Assembly: GCA_000770645.1 (NCBI GenBank)
Contig: JQID01000201.1
Coordinates: 1-64,000, forward strand
Source: Desulfosporosinus sp. Tol-M
GTDB taxonomy: Bacteria > Bacillota > Desulfitobacteriia > Desulfitobacteriales > Desulfitobacteriaceae
Direction of reading: 5' to 3'
Length of the DNA: 64,000 bases
Shown: positions 5,581 to 55,806 of the stretch, piece by piece
Layout: each line of letters starts with the position of its first letter
Numbering within the stretch: position 1 is the first letter of the stretch
Notes under the pieces: generated by a model
Told to the model about the DNA's origin: nothing
The model's input: only the letters and a program-made list of their open reading frames with translations
The model's database searches: none
Program-made: the position numbers and the translations under genes

Positions 5581-6438
5581 ATGATTGAAATAGGGAAAAT
5601 ACAAAACCTTAAAATTGCTAATTTCACATCCTTTGGCGCTTATTTAGATGCAGGCACGGGCATTCGGCGCGATAATATCCTTCTGCCCAAAAAACAAGTA
5701 CCGGAGAGCGCTCAAGAGGGGGACGAGTTAGAGGTCTTTATATATCGGGATTCCGAGGAACGGCTAATCGCCACCCGGAAAAAACCGTTGGCTCAATTAG
5801 GGGACTTAGCCTATCTAAAAGTATCTGCAAAGACATCGATTGGGGCCTTTCTGGATATAGGTCTGGAGAGAGGTTTATTATTACCATTTCAGGAACAAAA
5901 ATATCCGCTCCAGGTGGGTAAAGGCTATTTGGTAAAGGTCTACTTGGATAAGAGTCAGAGATTAAGCGCCACGACAGAAATTTATGAGTATTTATCGGCA
6001 GAATCTCCCTATCAGAAGAACGACAAAATAGGAGGGACTGTTTATGCTGTGAACCTCGATATAGGCGCTTTTGTAGCCGTAGATAATAAGTTTCTGGGAC
6101 TCATTCCGGTCAATGAGTATTTTAGTGAGTTGCGAGAGGGTGATCAAGTTGAGGCACGGGTTATCCGGGTTAGAGAAGATGGCAAGCTTGACTTATCGTT
6201 AAGAGATCTTTCCTATATTCAAATAGATAACGACACGTTGAAAATCCTCCAAGGAATCAAGAATCACGAAGGATTTCTGGCGCTTAATGACCATAGCAGC
6301 CCCCTTGAAATCCAAAGTCGCTTACAAATAAGCAAAGCCGCTTTCAAAAGAGCACTGGGCAGACTGCTCAAAGAGAAGAAAGTGATGCAGACGGATGGCG
6401 GATTGAAGGAAATTCCGAGCGGGGAGGAAGTGTCTTAA
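5581..6438 (+). CDS. cvfB: S1-domain RNA-binding protein, CvfB/YitL family
   Basis: Family members are modular RNA-binding proteins; in Staphylococcus CvfB affects virulence gene expression, but the role here is unknown. The 285-aa protein has successive S1-like beta-barrels: FTSFGAYLDAGTG near the start, TSIGAFLDIGLERG near residue 85, and a third repeat with VYAVNLDIGAFVAV. A winged-helix-like end follows (SRLQISKAAFKRALGRLLKEKKV). The start follows GAAAGGGG. The last codons and the TAA stop lie in the left-end repeat of the MITE-like element beginning at 6423, so the original C-terminus was probably altered by insertion. Confidence 0.88.
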   Translation: MIEIGKIQNLKIANFTSFGAYLDAGTGIRRDNILLPKKQVPESAQEGDELEVFIYRDSEERLIATRKKPLAQLGDLAYLKVSAKTSIGAFLDIGLERGLLLPFQEQKYPLQVGKGYLVKVYLDKSQRLSATTEIYEYLSAESPYQKNDKIGGTVYAVNLDIGAFVAVDNKFLGLIPVNEYFSELREGDQVEARVIRVREDGKLDLSLRDLSYIQIDNDTLKILQGIKNHEGFLALNDHSSPLEIQSRLQISKAAFKRALGRLLKEKKVMQTDGGLKEIPSGEEVS

Positions 6439-6460
6439 CCCGTTCGCACACGTTCCGTCG
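6423..6460 (+). repeat. Extra left-end unit of the MITE-like element (38-bp direct repeat)
   Basis: GGAGGAAGTGTCTTAACCCG and the following bases to 6456 recur at 6461-6494, giving a 38-bp tandem period. The first unit overlaps the cvfB stop codon. A shortened counterpart of this extra end flanks the second copy at about 18903-18926, so it seems to belong to the element rather than to the locus. Confidence 0.75.
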
Positions 6461-6461
6461 G

Positions 6462-6638
6462 GAGGAAGTGTCTTAACCCGTTCGCACACGTTCCATCGCT
6501 ATTCGCTTGACGCTAAGTCTAAAACGCAAAACCTCTGGGCAATTCTGCATGTTAACCGTTGCGTTTCTTCACGCCTTATCGTCTGCACTCATTGACGCGA
6601 CTCCTCTCTCCGTGCTCTCTAAGTTAAGAAACTTCCTC
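6462..6638 (+). mobile_element. MITE-like non-coding element, copy A (177 bp)
   Basis: This 177-bp segment recurs nearly unchanged, inverted, at 18726-18902. The ends are imperfect inverted repeats, GAGGAAGTGTCTTA on the left and TAAGAAACTTCCTC on the right. There is no credible coding frame. A few matching bases (TGGCTTG) continue beyond the right end in both copies. Two copies of equal length, terminal inverted repeats and intergenic placement suggest a miniature inverted-repeat element moved by a transposase encoded elsewhere; the mechanism is inferred. Confidence 0.75.
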
Positions 6639-11555: not shown

Positions 11556-12290
11556 ATGGATCATCGCCTGGAAACCCGACAAAAAGTTGTTGAGGCAGGA
11601 ATGAAAATGCTCTCGACAAACCTTACGGTAGGAACCTGGGGCAATATCAGTTGTCGGGTCCCCGGAGAAGACAATATTGCCATCACTCCGACCGGAATGA
11701 GCTACGATACATTGGTCCCTGAGGATATCGTTGTTTTGGATTTAAGAGGAAAAACCATTAGCGGATATCGTAAAGCTTCCATTGAAGTGCCCCTGCATTT
11801 GGCGATTTATCATGCTCGCCAGGACGTCCAGGCGATTGTACATACCCATAGCGCTTATACCACCGCAATGGCCGTGGCACGGCGAGAAATACCGGGAGCC
11901 GTCGAAGATTTGGTGCAAATTGTCGGCGGAAATGTGCGGGTTAATGAATACGCGCTGCCAGGAACTGAGCAGCTTGGCATCAACACGGTAAAAGCAATGG
12001 CAGGCAGAAATGCAGTTTTACTTGCCAACCACGGCATGTTGGGTGTTGGCCGAAACTTAGAGGAAGCCTTTAGAGTTTGCCAAGTCGTTGAAAAATCGGC
12101 GCAAGTTACACTTCTGGCACAACTCATGGGTGGGGTTGTCGAATTATCTCAAGAGGATATTGACGGCATGCGAAATTTCTATCTTCAGGGATATGGTCAA
12201 GATAAAGACAAAGATAAAGATAAAGACAAAGATAAAGATAAAGACGAAGACAATGATAAAGATAAAGATAAAGATAAAGATGTATCCTAA
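11556..12290 (+). CDS. Class II aldolase (fuculose/deoxyribulose-phosphate type) with Lys-Asp repeat tail
   Basis: The 244-aa protein belongs to the zinc-dependent class II aldolase/adducin family: GTWGNISCRV near the N-terminus, ITPTGMSYDTL, the metal-binding VHTHSAYTTAMAV and the later LLANHGMLGVG. These enzymes cleave sugar 1-phosphates to dihydroxyacetone phosphate and an aldehyde. The ATG at 11556 follows AAGGAGAAGG; an upstream in-frame start would lack a site. The last ~30 residues are almost only Lys-Asp repeats, absent from ordinary family members. The neighbour is S-adenosylhomocysteinase, so a role in salvage of 5-deoxy sugars from S-adenosylmethionine by-products is possible but inferred. 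Confidence 0.8.
   Translation: MDHRLETRQKVVEAGMKMLSTNLTVGTWGNISCRVPGEDNIAITPTGMSYDTLVPEDIVVLDLRGKTISGYRKASIEVPLHLAIYHARQDVQAIVHTHSAYTTAMAVARREIPGAVEDLVQIVGGNVRVNEYALPGTEQLGINTVKAMAGRNAVLLANHGMLGVGRNLEEAFRVCQVVEKSAQVTLLAQLMGGVVELSQEDIDGMRNFYLQGYGQDKDKDKDKDKDKDKDEDNDKDKDKDKDVS
12201..12281 (+). repeat. Hexanucleotide GATAAA/GACAAA tandem repeat inside the aldolase gene
   Basis: About 13 units of GAYAAA encode alternating Asp and Lys, interrupted once by GACGAAGACAAT. The tract is in phase with the reading frame, so slippage by whole hexamers would change tail length without frameshift. Confidence 0.9.
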
Positions 12291-13704: not shown

Positions 13705-14613
13705 ATGTATAATAATATTCTTGATACCATAGGCCATACACCGCTTGTCATGATCAACCGGTTGAACCCGAAACCTCATATTCCGCTTTATGCTAAACTG
13801 GAGGGCTTCAACCCTACTGGAAGCATCAAAGACCGAATTGCCCTAAAAATGATTGAGCAGGCGGAAGAAAGCGGTATGCTAACCAAGGGAAAAACAATCA
13901 TCGAGCCTACCTCCGGCAATACGGGGATTGGTCTGGCTATGATTGGCGCAGTAAAAGGTTATGCCGTAGAAATTGTAATGAGTGAGGCTGTTTCCATTGA
14001 ACGCCGCAAAATGATTGAGGCTTTTGGGGCAAGGATAACTCTGACAGATCCTTCCATGGGAACTGATGGAGCCATCCGGAAAGCTCATGAGCTCTGCCAC
14101 AGCCATCCGGGCAAATATTTCATGCCGAACCAGTTTTCTAATGAATACAATAAACTGACGCATTATTACACTACTGCAAATGAAATTTGGGAGGACACCC
14201 AGGGAAGGATCACCCATTTTGTTTCCGCACTTGGCACATCGGGGACCATCATGGGGGTAGGAATGGGACTGAAGAATAAAAACCCCGAGATCCAGATCGT
14301 AGAGGCCCATCCTGTGCTCGGTCATTATATTCAAGGTCTAAAAAACATGCAGGAAGCGATAGTCCCGGAAATATACGATCCAACGAAAATCGACCGGACA
14401 GTTATGATTGAATCCGAGGCCGCTTTTTCCATGGCCAGAGCTATTGTATTGCAGGAAGGTATTTTTGTAGGTATGAGCAGCGGAGCAGCCATGCTTGCTG
14501 CTCTGGAATGCATCAAAGATATGCAGGAAGGCTTTGTGGTTGTACTATTCGCCGACCGGGGAGAAAAATATTTGAGCACGGATTTATTCAGTCCGATTGT
14601 TTCAAACTATTGA
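13705..14613 (+). CDS. cysK: Cysteine synthase (O-acetylserine sulfhydrylase)
   Basis: This PLP enzyme makes cysteine from O-acetylserine and sulfide. It contains the PLP-lysine motif GFNPTGSIKDRIA, the phosphate-binding TSGNTGIGLA, MPNQFSNEYNKLTHYYTTANEIW and the glycine loop GTSGTIMGVG. The 302-aa length is typical. The ATG at 13705 has AAAGG 9 bases upstream; the in-frame ATG at 13696 lies within that site. It follows ahcY by about 108 bp with no strong terminator, linking sulfur amino-acid steps. A cystathionine beta-synthase-like activity cannot be excluded from sequence alone. Confidence 0.9.
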   Translation: MYNNILDTIGHTPLVMINRLNPKPHIPLYAKLEGFNPTGSIKDRIALKMIEQAEESGMLTKGKTIIEPTSGNTGIGLAMIGAVKGYAVEIVMSEAVSIERRKMIEAFGARITLTDPSMGTDGAIRKAHELCHSHPGKYFMPNQFSNEYNKLTHYYTTANEIWEDTQGRITHFVSALGTSGTIMGVGMGLKNKNPEIQIVEAHPVLGHYIQGLKNMQEAIVPEIYDPTKIDRTVMIESEAAFSMARAIVLQEGIFVGMSSGAAMLAALECIKDMQEGFVVVLFADRGEKYLSTDLFSPIVSNY

Positions 14614-14688
14614 AAGTTATGTGTATTAATAACCACATGATAATCTTTAAAAATGGATAAGAGAAAAAGGAAACATCAGTGATACTAA

Positions 14689-14722
14689 GGGGCGTAACGA
14701 AACTTCAGTTTCGTTACGCCCC
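14689..14722. terminator. Long perfect hairpin after cysK
   Basis: GGGGCGTAACGAAAC and GTTTCGTTACGCCCC form a 15-bp perfect stem with a TTCA loop. There is no T-run, so it may be a structural terminator or mobile-repeat relic; its distance of 75 bp after cysK fits a terminator. Confidence 0.5.
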
Positions 14723-14786
14723 CTGTTATCCAACCAGCTCCCAGGCATAGATAGCGAGGGAAAAGAGGGTTAATAGCTAAGACTGG

Positions 14787-14815
14787 TTGACAAAATAGCT
14801 AATACGCCTTATAAT
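14787..14815 (+). promoter_or_regulatory. Consensus sigma-A promoter of the Phd-Uma2 gene
   Basis: TTGACA at 14787-14792 and TATAAT at 14810-14815 are both perfect hexamers with a 17-base spacer, 32 bp upstream of the ATG. Confidence 0.85.
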
Positions 14816-14846
14816 TATACCTAAATTAAAATTAGCAGGTGATAGC

Positions 14847-15581
14847 ATGCGTATTAATACTACCGATATACAAAATGCTTTTGGAAAATATCTTTCCCTC
14901 GTGGAGAAGGAGGACATTATTATTACGAAAAACGGAAAGAGTGTTGCCAAACTCATCCGCTACAACGAACCTGACTGTTTTCTTGTTTACGAAGAATCAT
15001 TAAAATATCAATCGACAAAAAGAATAAGCTATGAAGAATATATGAGGCTGGTTGATTCTTCTGATCAAAGATACGAACTCATCGACGGTGAGATTTATCT
15101 GCTGGCTTCACCTTCCTTTACCCACCAGGTGGTTGTTAATGAAATATCAGGTCATTTTTATAACTATTTCAAAGGAAAACCCTGTCAATCATTGACATCT
15201 CCATTTGATGTGAGATTATTCGGTTATGCGACCAAGTTCGAAGAGGATCCCAATATTGTCCAGCCGGATGTTATGGTGATCTGTGATGAAGATAAGGTTA
15301 ATGAAAAGAACATGTATGAAGGCATACCGACACTAGTTGTCGAAGTCTTAGCTCCATCGACCAAGGGTAAAGATATGGTGAAGAAGTTAAATCTCTATAT
15401 GAAAAGCGGTGTTTTAGAATACTGGATTGTAAATCTGGAAAACAAAAGTATTCTTCAATACTCCTTTTCTCAAGATAAAGATATAGAAAGCTTAAGGAGT
15501 GTTAATGGGGATGATACAATTCAATCAATTGAATTTCGAGGACTTGAGATAGTATTAAGAGATATTTTTAATGATATTTAA
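14847..15581 (+). CDS. Fusion of a Phd/YefM-type antitoxin domain to a Uma2-family nuclease domain
   Basis: Residues 1-50 (RINTTDIQNAFGKYLSLVEK and IIITKNGKSVAKLIRY) have the Phd/YefM antitoxin fold signature, normally a separate DNA-binding antitoxin. Residues 57-240 are Uma2 (DUF820), a restriction-endonuclease-like PD-(D/E)XK domain: RYELIDGEIYLLASPS, QPDVMVI near 139, VVEVLAPSTKGKD near 164 and YWIVN. Uma2 proteins are usually free-standing and their role is unclear. Here the two are one 244-aa polypeptide with a perfect promoter and a single start. A self-regulated nuclease is possible; this is inference. Confidence 0.8.
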   Translation: MRINTTDIQNAFGKYLSLVEKEDIIITKNGKSVAKLIRYNEPDCFLVYEESLKYQSTKRISYEEYMRLVDSSDQRYELIDGEIYLLASPSFTHQVVVNEISGHFYNYFKGKPCQSLTSPFDVRLFGYATKFEEDPNIVQPDVMVICDEDKVNEKNMYEGIPTLVVEVLAPSTKGKDMVKKLNLYMKSGVLEYWIVNLENKSILQYSFSQDKDIESLRSVNGDDTIQSIEFRGLEIVLRDIFNDI

Positions 15582-15594
15582 TAAAGATTCTGAT

Positions 15595-15625
15595 CAGAGC
15601 AAACATGCTCTTGTTATTTTATTTT
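15595..15625 (+). terminator. Terminator of the Phd-Uma2 gene
   Basis: AGAGC and GCTCT pair around AAACAT, followed by a T-rich tail. The stem is short, but it sits 14 bp after the stop codon. Confidence 0.5.
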
Positions 15626-15707
15626 TTTCTTCAGACATTTGCTTAATGATGATCAGCCTTGAGTCCTTTTGACGCAGTTGCTGAATGGGACATCTTTTTC
15701 TTTTTAG

Positions 15708-15735
15708 GGGACGCATTTGAATAATTTTGCGTCCC
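15708..15735. terminator. Hairpin GGGACGCA/TGCGTCCC
   Basis: An 8-bp perfect stem with a 12-base AT-rich loop lies directly before the TTATTATTG repeat. No T-run follows. It may be a terminator relic. Confidence 0.35.
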
Positions 15736-15787
15736 ATTATTGTTATTATTGTTATTATTGTTATTATTGTTATTATTGTTATTATTG
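15736..15787 (+). repeat. Nonamer microsatellite TTATTATTG, about 5.8 units
   Basis: A partial unit ATTATTG is followed by five exact copies of TTATTATTG. It lies in the 363-bp non-coding gap between the Uma2 fusion and the ABC exporter; the rest of that gap holds the two hairpins described and no gene that I can support. Confidence 0.9.
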
Positions 15788-15944
15788 TGTCTCTTCTTAG
15801 AAATTATTTGATTGGGTTAGATATTTGGGGCATTCTAGAAGAAAGCTAATATTTTTCTGTTAGAAGACCTTACTAATTATGTCAGAATTTTAATGGATTA
15901 ATTGCTTTATCAGTTTTATGTGTTTTAGAAAGGAGGTACTATCC

Positions 15945-16727
15945 ATGGAAACCAAGGAAACGGTCTTAATTAAGACGAATCAATTAAATAAACGGTATGG
16001 GTCTGTCCCTGTGGTCAAAGACCTCAACTTAGAAGTTAAGAGCGGGGAAATATTTGGCTTCCTCGGACCAAACGGTTCAGGTAAAACGACCACTATTAAA
16101 ATGCTTACAGGGCTTTTGGATCCCAGTGAAGGAGAAGTATTTATTTGCGGCTATGATATAAAAAAACAGCCAACACAAGCTAAGGCCTTGATGGCCTATG
16201 TGCCTGAGCAGCCTAAATTGTACAATAAGCTTTCTGCACGGGAATTCTTAAAGCTTATTTCCGCTCTTTACCGTGTGCCTAAAGAAATCGCCAAAGAAAG
16301 AGCAGAACAATTTTTAGAGATGTTTGTACTTGAAGGACGGGCGGATGAATTATTGGAGGGCTACTCCCATGGTATGCGGCAGAAGGTAGTGTTGGCAGCG
16401 GCACTTATCCACCAGCCTAAGGTCATCCTTCTGGATGAACCTACTGTGGGTCTTGATCCGGCCAGTGCCCGTCTTCTGAAAGACATCCTGCAGGAGATGG
16501 CCCGGCAGGGGGCGGCAGTTTTTATCTCTACTCATATTCTGGAGATTGCTGAAAGAATGTGTCATCGGGTCGCTATACTTAAGGAGGGTCTACTGATTGC
16601 TCAAGGCAGCCCTGAGGAACTGCGTCAGAGAGTAGGGCACGGTGGGGAAAGCTTGGAAGATATCTTCCTTGAACTAACCGGCGGTCACGAAAATGCTGAA
16701 ATAATAAAAAGCCTGGAGGAGGAATAA
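15945..16727 (+). CDS. ABC transporter ATP-binding protein (ABC-2 exporter type)
   Basis: This is the ATPase of an ABC-2 exporter in the CcmA/NatA class. Walker A is GPNGSGKTT, the Q-loop lies in AYVPEQPKLY, the signature is the degenerate YSHGMRQKV, Walker B is VILLDEPTVGLDP and the H-loop is STHIL. The length is 260 aa from the ATG at 15945, which follows AAAGGAGGTAC; an upstream in-frame ATG at 15918 has no site. It is followed 5 bp later by its membrane partner. The substrate cannot be read from sequence. Confidence 0.88.
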   Translation: METKETVLIKTNQLNKRYGSVPVVKDLNLEVKSGEIFGFLGPNGSGKTTTIKMLTGLLDPSEGEVFICGYDIKKQPTQAKALMAYVPEQPKLYNKLSAREFLKLISALYRVPKEIAKERAEQFLEMFVLEGRADELLEGYSHGMRQKVVLAAALIHQPKVILLDEPTVGLDPASARLLKDILQEMARQGAAVFISTHILEIAERMCHRVAILKEGLLIAQGSPEELRQRVGHGGESLEDIFLELTGGHENAEIIKSLEEE

Positions 16728-53353: not shown

Positions 53354-54466
53354 ATGCTGATTGGAATACCAAAAGAGATTAAAAACAATGAAAGTCGGGT
53401 AGCAATTACCCCTGCAGGGGTCCATGCTTTAACTTTGAATGGGCATCAAGTTGGTGTGGAAAAATCCGCAGGTGAAGGTTGTGGAATCAGCGATCAGGAG
53501 TATAGCGGAGCGGGTGCAATGATCCTGGACTCTGTTGAAGAAGTTTGGAACGCCGACATGATCATAAAGGTCAAAGAACCCCTTGCCACCGAATACGCAT
53601 ATTTTAAACCCCAACAAATTCTGTTAACCTTTTTGCATTTGGCGAATGAACCGGAATTAACCAAAGTCCTCATGGAAAAAGAAGTGGTGGCGATTGCCTA
53701 CGAAACCATCCAATTAGATAATGGTTCATTGCCTTTGCTTATTCCGATGAGTGAGGTTGCCGGGAGAATGGCTATTCAAATCGGAGCACAATTACTTGAA
53801 AAACCCAATGGGGGAAGAGGGATTTTGCTGGGCGGAGTCCCTGGAGTAACTCCCGCAAATATAACCATTATCGGTGGCGGAATAGTGGGTACAAATGCGG
53901 CCAGGATGGCTATTGGCCTGGGCGCAGGAGCAACAATTATCGAAAAGAACGCCCAGCGGTTAAGGGAGCTTGATGAGGTCTTTAATGGCCGGGTAAGAAC
54001 ATTGATGTCCAATCCCTATAATATTGCGAGGAGTGTAGCTAAAGCGGATTTGCTTGTGGGGGCCGTACTGATCCCTGGCGCCCGAGCGCCTCGTTTGGTT
54101 ACGGAAGAAATGGTGAAGACAATGACGCCTGGAAGTGTCATCGTCGATGTTGCCATCGACCAAGGCGGTAATATAGCAACTACTGACCGGGTGACAACCC
54201 ATAGTAATCCCACTTATGTTAAATATGGGATTATCCATTACAGCGTCGCCAATATAGCCGGAGCAGTTGCCCGGACGTCGACCTATGCCCTAACCAATGT
54301 AACGCTGGAGTATGTGCTGGAGATAGCAAATAGTGGTTATTTTAAAGCGATCCAGAAAAATCGTTCGCTTCGTAAAGGAGTTAACGTCGTTAACGGTAAG
54401 TTAACCTATCAGGCAGTCGCCGAAGCGCTAAACATGGAGTATACGCCACTGGAGGAAGTACTCTAA
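53354..54466 (+). CDS. ald: Alanine dehydrogenase
   Basis: Ald interconverts L-alanine and pyruvate with NAD(H) and ammonia. The 370-aa protein begins [22 protein letters not shown] and has the active-site region [26 protein letters not shown], the Rossmann motif [19 protein letters not shown] and [12 protein letters not shown] at 53354 follows CGGAGGT; the frame is open 33 bp upstream. In Bacillus alanine dehydrogenase supports sporulation. It is flanked by its own promoter and terminator. Confidence 0.95.
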
Positions 54467-54912: not shown

Positions 54913-55806
54913 GTGACCTCCAAGGAACAACTACTGAAGCAGTATATGATTTATCTGCATGTTGAACGGGGGCTGTCAGAGAATACACGTCAGGCTTATG
55001 AGCGGGATCTGCGTCAACTAATCATCTTCCTTACACAGCGGGGGACAGATTTTACCGGCTGTGAAGCCAATGATCTATTTTTATTCCTTCTTCAATGGAG
55101 AGATAACGGAAAATCACCGCGCAGTATTGCTCGTTGCAATGCGACTTTACGAGGATTCTTTGCGTTCCTGTTGGATGAAGGGAGAAGGAATGACAATCCC
55201 AGTACTTATTTAGTGACCCCCAAGCTAAATCAAGCACTTCCGAAGGTGTTGTCGGAAGCAACAATGGATAAACTGTTACGGGCAGGGGAGAAATCCGATC
55301 TTGCCCTGCGAGATTTGGCGATGCTGGAGGTGCTTTATAGCAGCGGTCTCCGTGTTTCTGAATTGGTCGGGTTACGTTTGTCCGATGTCTCGTTGGATGT
55401 CGGATATGTTCGCTGCCTGGGCAAGGGAAATAAGGAACGGATTATCCCCTTAGGTGACCCGGCTGTTCGGGCTGTGAAGGCTTACTTAAATTCCTTGCGC
55501 CGGCGTTTGTGCGGGAAGCGGGAAAGCGATATTCTATTTTTGAATGTTCACGGCCGCCCTCTCACCCGCCAGGGGATAGTGTACATTTTGAAAAAATGGG
55601 GAAAAACTCATAATGTCGAGCGAACAATTTCCCCCCACATGTTTCGGCACAGTTTTGCCACTCATCTGCTGGATCATGGGGCCGACCTGCGTTCCGTGCA
55701 GGAAATGCTGGGACATGTGGATATCTCGACGACGCAAATTTATACGCATTTAACACGGACACGTTTGCTGGATGTCTTTAGGAAGTCGCACCCACGGGCG
55801 GAGTAA
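54913..55806 (+). CDS. xerD: Site-specific tyrosine recombinase XerD
   Basis: XerCD resolves chromosome dimers at dif. The 297-aa protein has the SAM-like N-terminal domain (LHVERGLSENTRQAYERDL) and the tyrosine recombinase catalytic residues: Arg in LYSSGLRVSELVGL, HMFRHSFATHLL (H-x-x-R), LGHVDISTTQIYTHL with the late His and nucleophilic Tyr. GTG 54913 is well spaced after AAAGGAG; the in-frame GTG at 54904 overlaps that site. Length matches Bacillus XerD. Confidence 0.93.
   Translation: MTSKEQLLKQYMIYLHVERGLSENTRQAYERDLRQLIIFLTQRGTDFTGCEANDLFLFLLQWRDNGKSPRSIARCNATLRGFFAFLLDEGRRNDNPSTYLVTPKLNQALPKVLSEATMDKLLRAGEKSDLALRDLAMLEVLYSSGLRVSELVGLRLSDVSLDVGYVRCLGKGNKERIIPLGDPAVRAVKAYLNSLRRRLCGKRESDILFLNVHGRPLTRQGIVYILKKWGKTHNVERTISPHMFRHSFATHLLDHGADLRSVQEMLGHVDISTTQIYTHLTRTRLLDVFRKSHPRAE

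Follow-up and report, generated by a model that had tools for sequence, protein, structure and literature searches.

A conserved Phd-Uma2 fusion protein of Desulfosporosinus, very likely self-repressing and predicted to be a nuclease

Uma2 genes are heavily proliferated and functionally unexplained, and a gene in which a Uma2 domain follows the DNA-binding domain of an antitoxin raises the question of whether one protein may be both a nuclease and its own regulator. We examined such a gene in Desulfosporosinus sp. Tol-M, within a window of 64,000 nucleotides (positions 1 to 64,000 of contig JQID01000201.1), where an earlier note had proposed a Phd-type antitoxin domain joined to Uma2 in one gene with a consensus promoter and had suggested a self-contained regulated nuclease. 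Fused versions of this kind offer a handle on Uma2 through their promoter, candidate operator, linker motif and invariant predicted catalytic residues and, if confirmed, would show how a potentially harmful nuclease can exist without a partner antitoxin gene.

Architecture of the fusion gene and its predicted active site

The gene was found to be a single uninterrupted open reading frame (Table 1). Pfam profiles identified Uma2 (PF05685) at residues 63–234 with an E-value of 3.3e-29 and 102 bits, against a curated cut-off of 27. The PhdYeFM_antitox match to residues 3–43 (E 7.1e-7) scored 29.4 bits, 0.4 below the cut-off of 29.8, and the NCBIfam profile phd_fam scored 23.9 bits, above its own cut-off of 20.8. 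All 38 members of our protein alignment A2, the window protein among them, matched both Pfam families at E <= 0.01. An AlphaFold model generated from 38 sequences had a mean pLDDT of 85 for the full protein and folded residues 1–36 into a small beta-alpha-alpha-beta-beta domain, whilst the N-terminal domain modelled alone (residues 1–57) reached a mean pLDDT of 88. The first 29 PDB matches to this domain model were all chains of antitoxins or toxin-antitoxin complexes (Phd, VapB46, YefM, RelB and similar), at E-values of 0.019 or more and none at 0.001 or less. Comparison of the full model with the PDB recovered the N-terminal domains of VapB46 and P1 Phd further down (E >= 0.18, probability 1.00), and a phmmer search of residues 1–57 against the PDB gave nothing useful. 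The accessible part of a report on an unusual Enterococcus faecalis Phd contrasts it with canonical Phd, a beta-alpha-alpha-beta-beta protein that binds two adjacent palindromes (PMC13034048); as modelled, the N-terminal domain of the window protein belongs to this canonical type.

The Phd part comprises the DNA-binding half of an antitoxin only. Profile and fold both place this half in the Phd/YefM family, but the usual C-terminal tail that binds and neutralises a separate toxin is missing, and Uma2 comes after a short linker instead. The single reading frame, the two profile matches and the antitoxin-like fold of the N-terminal domain thereby bear out the one-gene fusion that had been proposed from the sequence, whilst the description of its first part as a Phd-type antitoxin domain stands for the DNA-binding half and falls for the toxin-binding tail.

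The predicted model of the Uma2 part resembled 6okh, 9y1l, 3ot2 and 1wdj, with TM-scores of 0.89, 0.87, 0.82 and 0.77, respectively, by target length. A PD-EXX-K active site was proposed for the Uma2 family by Feder and Bujnicki (PMC551604, in the part available), and from their position D141, E166 and K180 would form this site in the window protein. All three residues were invariant in 92 of 92 distinct fused genes, a set with no thinning by identity, as were Q139, P140, C146 and D176. The window protein thus shares with Uma2 (also COG4636 or DUF820) its fold, predicted active-site residues and occurrence as a solo gene, but adds a preceding Phd domain, a conserved linker motif and a matching array of palindromes at the promoter.

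Table 1. Features of the Phd-Uma2 locus, in coordinates of the window
Feature	Position	Strand	Basis
Candidate operator site 1, TAGCTA palindrome (AATAGCTAAG), just 5' of the -35 element	14774–14779	.	Sequence; conserved in family
Sigma-70 promoter, TTGACA-17 bp-TATAAT, perfect consensus	14787–14815	+	Consensus scan
Candidate operator site 2, TAGCTA (AATAGCTAAT), between the -35 and -10 elements, 22 bp from site 1	14796–14801	.	Sequence
Putative operator site 3, degenerate TACCTA, just 3' of the -10 element, 22 bp from site 2	14818–14823	.	Spacing
Likely ribosome-binding site, AGGTG	14837–14841	+	Read from sequence
Phd-Uma2 fusion gene, 244 aa, ATG at 14847 to stop at 15581	14847–15581	+	ORF, profiles, survey, alignment
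Phd/YefM-type DNA-binding domain, residues 1–36	14847–14954	+	Profiles, AlphaFold, fold matches
Linker, residues 37–61	14955–15029	+	AlphaFold; residues 43–56 with pLDDT <50
Linker motif V47-x-E49-x-S51-x-x-Y54	14985–15008	+	Common to Phd-Uma2 and HTH-Uma2 proteins
Uma2 PD-(D/E)XK domain, residues 62–241	15030–15569	+	Pfam, AlphaFold, fold matches
Stretch with predicted catalytic residues D141 (15267–15269), E166 (15342–15344) and K180 (15384–15386)	15267–15386	+	Alignment
Terminator-like hairpin 3' of the gene	15596–15611	+	Consensus scan only

Candidate operators at fused and stand-alone Phd genes

The perfect consensus promoter reported by the earlier note was confirmed, being the only 12-of-12 match in a scan of positions 14500–16000. 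Three candidate operator sites lie across it, the third of them degenerate; an exact TAGCTA occupies the equivalent of this third position in some relatives (e.g. L008, L009 and L012). Across the family, TAGCTA was present within 100 bp upstream of 74 of 91 Phd-Uma2 genes with less than 80 % protein identity (two of which, L185 and L186, are partial), against 9.6 expected by chance from dinucleotide shuffles of a 92-gene set that included L145_2, which proved to be an HTH-Uma2 gene and is omitted from the 91. In the 92-gene set, two copies were found in 46 upstream regions, three in 20, one in 8 and none in 18 (two or more in 66), and TTAGCTAA was found in 48, where dinucleotide shuffles gave 0.98. 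TAGCTA was found in the first 100 coding bases of none of the 92 genes, did not rank with the four leading palindromes downstream of fused genes, and was upstream of just 1 of 62 Uma2 genes without Phd. Gaps between neighbouring copies were mostly 9, 17–18 or 22–23 bp. A subgroup (e.g. L102, L103, L107, L109 and L187) displayed TCGTACGA-like sites in place of TAGCTA, and 12 of the 91 fused genes had neither operator class within the upstream stretch taken, some of which may have been assigned the wrong start codon.

Mapping of the exact pattern TTAGCTA-N3-18-TAGCTAA to eight genomes, selected as carriers of fusions, returned 12 matches, ten of them directly upstream of Phd-Uma2 genes (two of these overlapping at one promoter); the reversed control returned four. 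The remaining two, one inside an open frame (G400) and one 5' of an unrelated frame (G015), were the only matches away from Phd-Uma2 genes in these genomes; we saw little sign of a wider regulon. Genome G346 contained fused genes and no match to the exact pattern. A looser pattern was found in three places in the Tol-M genome, one of them the Phd-Uma2 promoter, and its reversed control in seven. At the sequence level, the palindromic operator at its own promoter is a further Phd/YefM trait of the gene, and fused Phd-Uma2 genes carrying a candidate operator of their own are new here.

We compared these genes with 42 stand-alone Phd genes of 70–82 aa from genomes of the phylum. The adjacent frame starts like a PIN protein in 33 of the 42 by a simple pattern, and two such partners checked by profile were PIN_3. 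Where readable, the stand-alone genes displayed the same two operator types as the fused genes, with strict patterns leaving 22 of 42 without either class. Over fused and stand-alone genes together, Q9 with a readable operator was accompanied by TAGCTA in 69 of 69 cases and a TCGNNCGA operator by K9 in 18 of 18; 12 genes nonetheless combined K9 with TAGCTA, ten of them with N10, and K9 does not fix the class. The window protein carries Q9-N10 (encoded at 14871–14876), and residues 9–10 covary with operator class, although this pair was selected post hoc, as those of 42 positions that separated the classes best, and the counts are uncorrected for relatedness. Phd/YefM antitoxins beside PIN genes thus share with the window protein the N-terminal domain, the operator classes (where readable) and the residue 9–10 trend, but possess a tail and a separate toxin gene, whereas the window protein is fused to a predicted nuclease.

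Because the operators are conserved, recur as the same types at stand-alone Phd genes and are tracked by residues 9–10, the Phd part very likely acts as a repressor at its own promoter, and the conserved Phd-Uma2 protein is, judged from these comparisons, very likely self-repressing. The regulated half of the suggested self-contained regulated nuclease is well supported in this way, given the promoter palindromes, their presence at stand-alone Phd genes and the location of the arrays mostly at Phd-Uma2 genes in the eight fusion-carrying genomes. Elsewhere in the Tol-M genome (contig C176, L276), a Phd match (54180–54380) and a partial Uma2 match (55113–55397) were observed on one strand, approximately 700 bp apart.

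A linker motif shared with HTH-Uma2 proteins

Some Uma2 proteins open with an HTH_17 domain as identified by profile (e.g. L059), and near-full-length matches to one such HTH-Uma2 protein were frequent across the 398 genomes also surveyed for Phd-Uma2 (below). Direct repeats of 10 bp (AGTTGATTAT) were observed upstream of HTH_17-Uma2 genes at L059, L060, L169, L187 and L285–L314. AGTTGAT was present in 21 of 32 HTH-Uma2 upstream regions (0.8 expected) and pairs of AGTTG 10 or 11 bp apart in 10 of 32 (0.01 expected), with repeat spacings peaking at 10 and 20; these counts are inflated by relatedness, because only exact doubles were removed from the set. Like Phd-Uma2, these proteins combine a DNA-binding domain, the same linker motif and Uma2, with repeats 5' of their own gene. 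Unlike Phd-Uma2, they have HTH_17 and direct repeats rather than Phd and palindromes, and belong to a separate Uma2 clade. For the HTH-Uma2 repeats only, a model by analogy is BldC, described in the accessible part of PMC5859096 as a small MerR-like protein bound in head-to-tail order on direct repeats of DNA; BldC is not a Uma2 protein.

The Uma2-domain tree, thinned by identity, comprised 21 Phd-Uma2, 4 HTH-Uma2 and 30 other sequences; L184 (cut by a contig end) and L232 (long branch) were dropped. The four HTH proteins formed a supported group with one HTH-less member, apart from Phd-Uma2, which suggests that Uma2 acquired a DNA-binding domain on more than one occasion. A strict single origin of Phd-Uma2 was rejected: the tree requires two changes and a single clade was rejected (p 0.011), indicating either that Phd was gained twice or that a single gain was accompanied by a loss. 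In a quick tree, the free-standing Uma2 L198 was nested among Phd-Uma2. Mixed paralogue clusters, in which Phd-Uma2 had another Uma2 frame nearby, some of them HTH-Uma2, were also observed (L020, L022, L023, L070, L160, L176 and L187).

The motif V-x-E-x4-Y lies on the N-terminal side of the Uma2 domain, most often 7–9 residues ahead of it. One expression applied to all sets matched 74 of 91 Phd-Uma2, 30 of 32 HTH-Uma2 and 1 of 60 other Uma2 proteins, the last being L176_2, the HTH-less member of the HTH clade; the motif alone was found in none of the 42 stand-alone Phd proteins. Linkers carried it in 71 of 83 Phd-Uma2 proteins (shuffled mean 4.1, maximum 10), eight of the 91 having been dropped without an anchor, and in 28 of 30 distinct HTH-Uma2 linkers (shuffled mean 0.6, maximum 4). 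The expressions were composed with the motif already in view, which biases the exact counts towards it; E49 (97 %) and Y54 (93 %), within a linker of low pLDDT, are conserved irrespective of the expressions. We also considered, and rejected, descent from a two-gene arrangement in which a small gene of its own carried the motif: none of 58 loci had a small upstream frame ending in it. As the motif goes with Uma2 and not with either DNA-binding domain, we read it as a putative Uma2-side control element, which could inhibit, dimerise or be cut.

Distribution, genomic context and readings of the gene

Some match to the window protein was found in 198 of 398 genomes across the phylum. Matches spanning both domains (query start at residue 6 or before, end at residue 237 or beyond) were found in at least 56 of the 398, a lower bound with no more than six candidates scored per genome, and in 11 of 24 genomes of the genus, the Tol-M genome being included in both counts. 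The best 80 of 538 relatives comprised fusions in Desulfosporosinus, Syntrophomonas, Bacillus, Caldibacillus, Paenibacillus, Spirochaetia assemblies and others. Far from being rare, Phd-Uma2 forms a family that extends across Bacillota, with some representatives in Spirochaetia assemblies as well. The survey for the same domain order proposed by the earlier note thus had a positive outcome, and the possibility it raised of a unique fusion created by a sequencing error joining two genes is ruled out by the number of genomes with both-domain matches. Relatives up to 83 % identical were present in another family and DNA similarity between genomes covered little beyond the promoter and the Phd-Uma2 gene, which suggests horizontal transfer. 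A phage or plasmid gene was rejected as an identity for the fusion: 11 viral-contig loci and one phage record matched only from about query residue 39 on, as did 29 of the 30 plasmid records listed (of 42), the other plasmid match beginning at residue 16 with 24 % identity. A literature search found no co-mention of PhdYeFM_antitox and Uma2, and the accessible parts of PMC2701414, PMC1274311 and PMC4963859 do not mention the fusion, which may nevertheless have been published before.

Pfam matched seven of the nine proteins that we scanned next to the gene or elsewhere in the window, namely a PLP-dependent enzyme, two ABC-transporter proteins, SpoIIIAA, adenosylhomocysteinase, a class II aldolase and Hsp90. 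Such housekeeping, transport and sporulation neighbours make the surroundings unlike a defence island. We also compared 1–3 kb of flank (shorter at contig ends) at the 91 fused loci for a conserved partner gene: none recurred at more than three other loci, bar Uma2 genes and ABC-type ATPases. A second Uma2 frame was present in the flank of 8 of the 91 loci, that at L185 probably being the second part of a single broken gene. The two-gene operon with a cognate toxin that characterizes type II toxin-antitoxin modules was not seen; the gene stands alone with its own promoter and no recurring partner. Membership in two-gene modules fails on this basis, and a single-chain analogue is possible.

The reading that we favour, with somewhat better than even confidence, is that the gene encodes an autorepressed, stand-alone predicted nuclease. 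The N-terminal Phd domain would dimerise and bind two or three TAGCTA palindromes in 22-bp steps across its own promoter, which would keep transcription low, with a flexible linker connecting it to the Uma2 PD-(D/E)XK domain. Since the predicted catalytic residues are kept, the Uma2 part most likely cuts nucleic acid when the level or state of the protein changes; this nuclease half is predicted from the fold and the invariance of those residues. The trigger might, at a guess by analogy with antitoxins, be proteolysis of the linker or Phd part, and the protein may have a role in stress or phage defence. A rather doubtful elaboration is a single-chain toxin-antitoxin, in which V-x-E-x4-Y would act as a peptide that neutralises Uma2 in cis and the DNA-binding domain, whether Phd or HTH, would serve as a replaceable repressor, much as it does in two-gene antitoxins. 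The predicted nuclease would then become active only once the linker had been cleaved or displaced. The prevalence of the motif in both fusion types and its near absence from other Uma2 and stand-alone Phd proteins are consistent with this, as are the grouping of L176_2 with the HTH clade, the excess over shuffled linkers and the conservation of E49 and Y54 where pLDDT is low. Against it, AlphaFold gives no confident docking of residues 43–56, the 58 loci yielded no two-gene version, free-standing Uma2 proteins do without the motif, and the motif expressions postdate its sighting. That Phd-Uma2 and HTH-Uma2 might be two forms of one such kind, each with a Uma2 nuclease, the in-cis peptide and unrelated DNA-binding domains with their own operator arrays, is a suggestion we make tentatively. 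If true, Uma2 would be the toxin, and a rule of constant tail and exchangeable DNA-binding domain would apply within a single protein.

An anti-phage effector, in which an autorepressed Uma2 nuclease acts in abortive infection and is derepressed when a phage disturbs Phd binding, we regard as unlikely. The Uma2 part matches the PADLOC family PDC-S03 (E 3.4e-58), which we take to be a label for a candidate defence gene, and the distribution within the genus is patchy, but the name PDC-S03 was not found in the literature among the matches listed and the seven Pfam-matched proteins near the gene are of the ordinary kinds given above. Both this and the single-chain toxin-antitoxin are compatible with the autorepressed predicted nuclease, and the likelihoods we attach to the readings are not shares of one whole. 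We consider it quite improbable that the protein is a non-cutting regulator whose Uma2 fold does no more than link Phd dimers bound at adjacent operators; the 22-bp phasing of the sites would suit such a role and PD-(D/E)XK folds without catalysis exist (PMC551604, in the same available part), yet D141, E166, K180 and other residues are invariant in all 92 fused genes and little points to a regulon beyond the gene's own promoter. Scarcely credible, finally, is a homing-like self-targeting in which Phd guides Uma2 to operators and empty or paralogous loci are cut and converted. The confinement of DNA similarity to little beyond promoter and gene would fit, as would the lack of Uma2 (E <= 1e-3) beside the flanking genes in relatives, at nine of nine ABC-anchored loci over approximately 1.4 kb on that side (a tenth, L134, with 0.3 kb only, was left out) and at six of six loci anchored on the cysteine-synthase-type gene. 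The accessible part of PMC6997586 further reports 20 clustered variants, many at approximately 40 % frequency, in the Uma2 gene Tsac_2318 in one strain of Thermoanaerobacterium saccharolyticum, which look like gene conversion from a paralogue. With palindromes in its own promoter, however, such a gene would cut itself.

Several repeats were also observed in the window. Between the cysteine-synthase-type gene and the promoter, an inverted repeat of 24 nt with a perfect core (88 % complementary; 14681–14730) resembles stretches present in several relatives on both strands. The adjoining intergenic stretch (approximately 14608–14681) has similar copies elsewhere in the Tol-M genome and in relatives, five of them listed in G410, and is possibly a small mobile repeat. 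Tandem repeats were present at the end of the class II aldolase gene (12199–12281; 6 bp, 13.8 copies), where they encode a (KD)n tail, and between Phd-Uma2 and the ABC transporter (15736–15788; perfect 9 bp, 5.9 copies), and a 38-bp unit is repeated twice with 97 % matches at 6422–6498.
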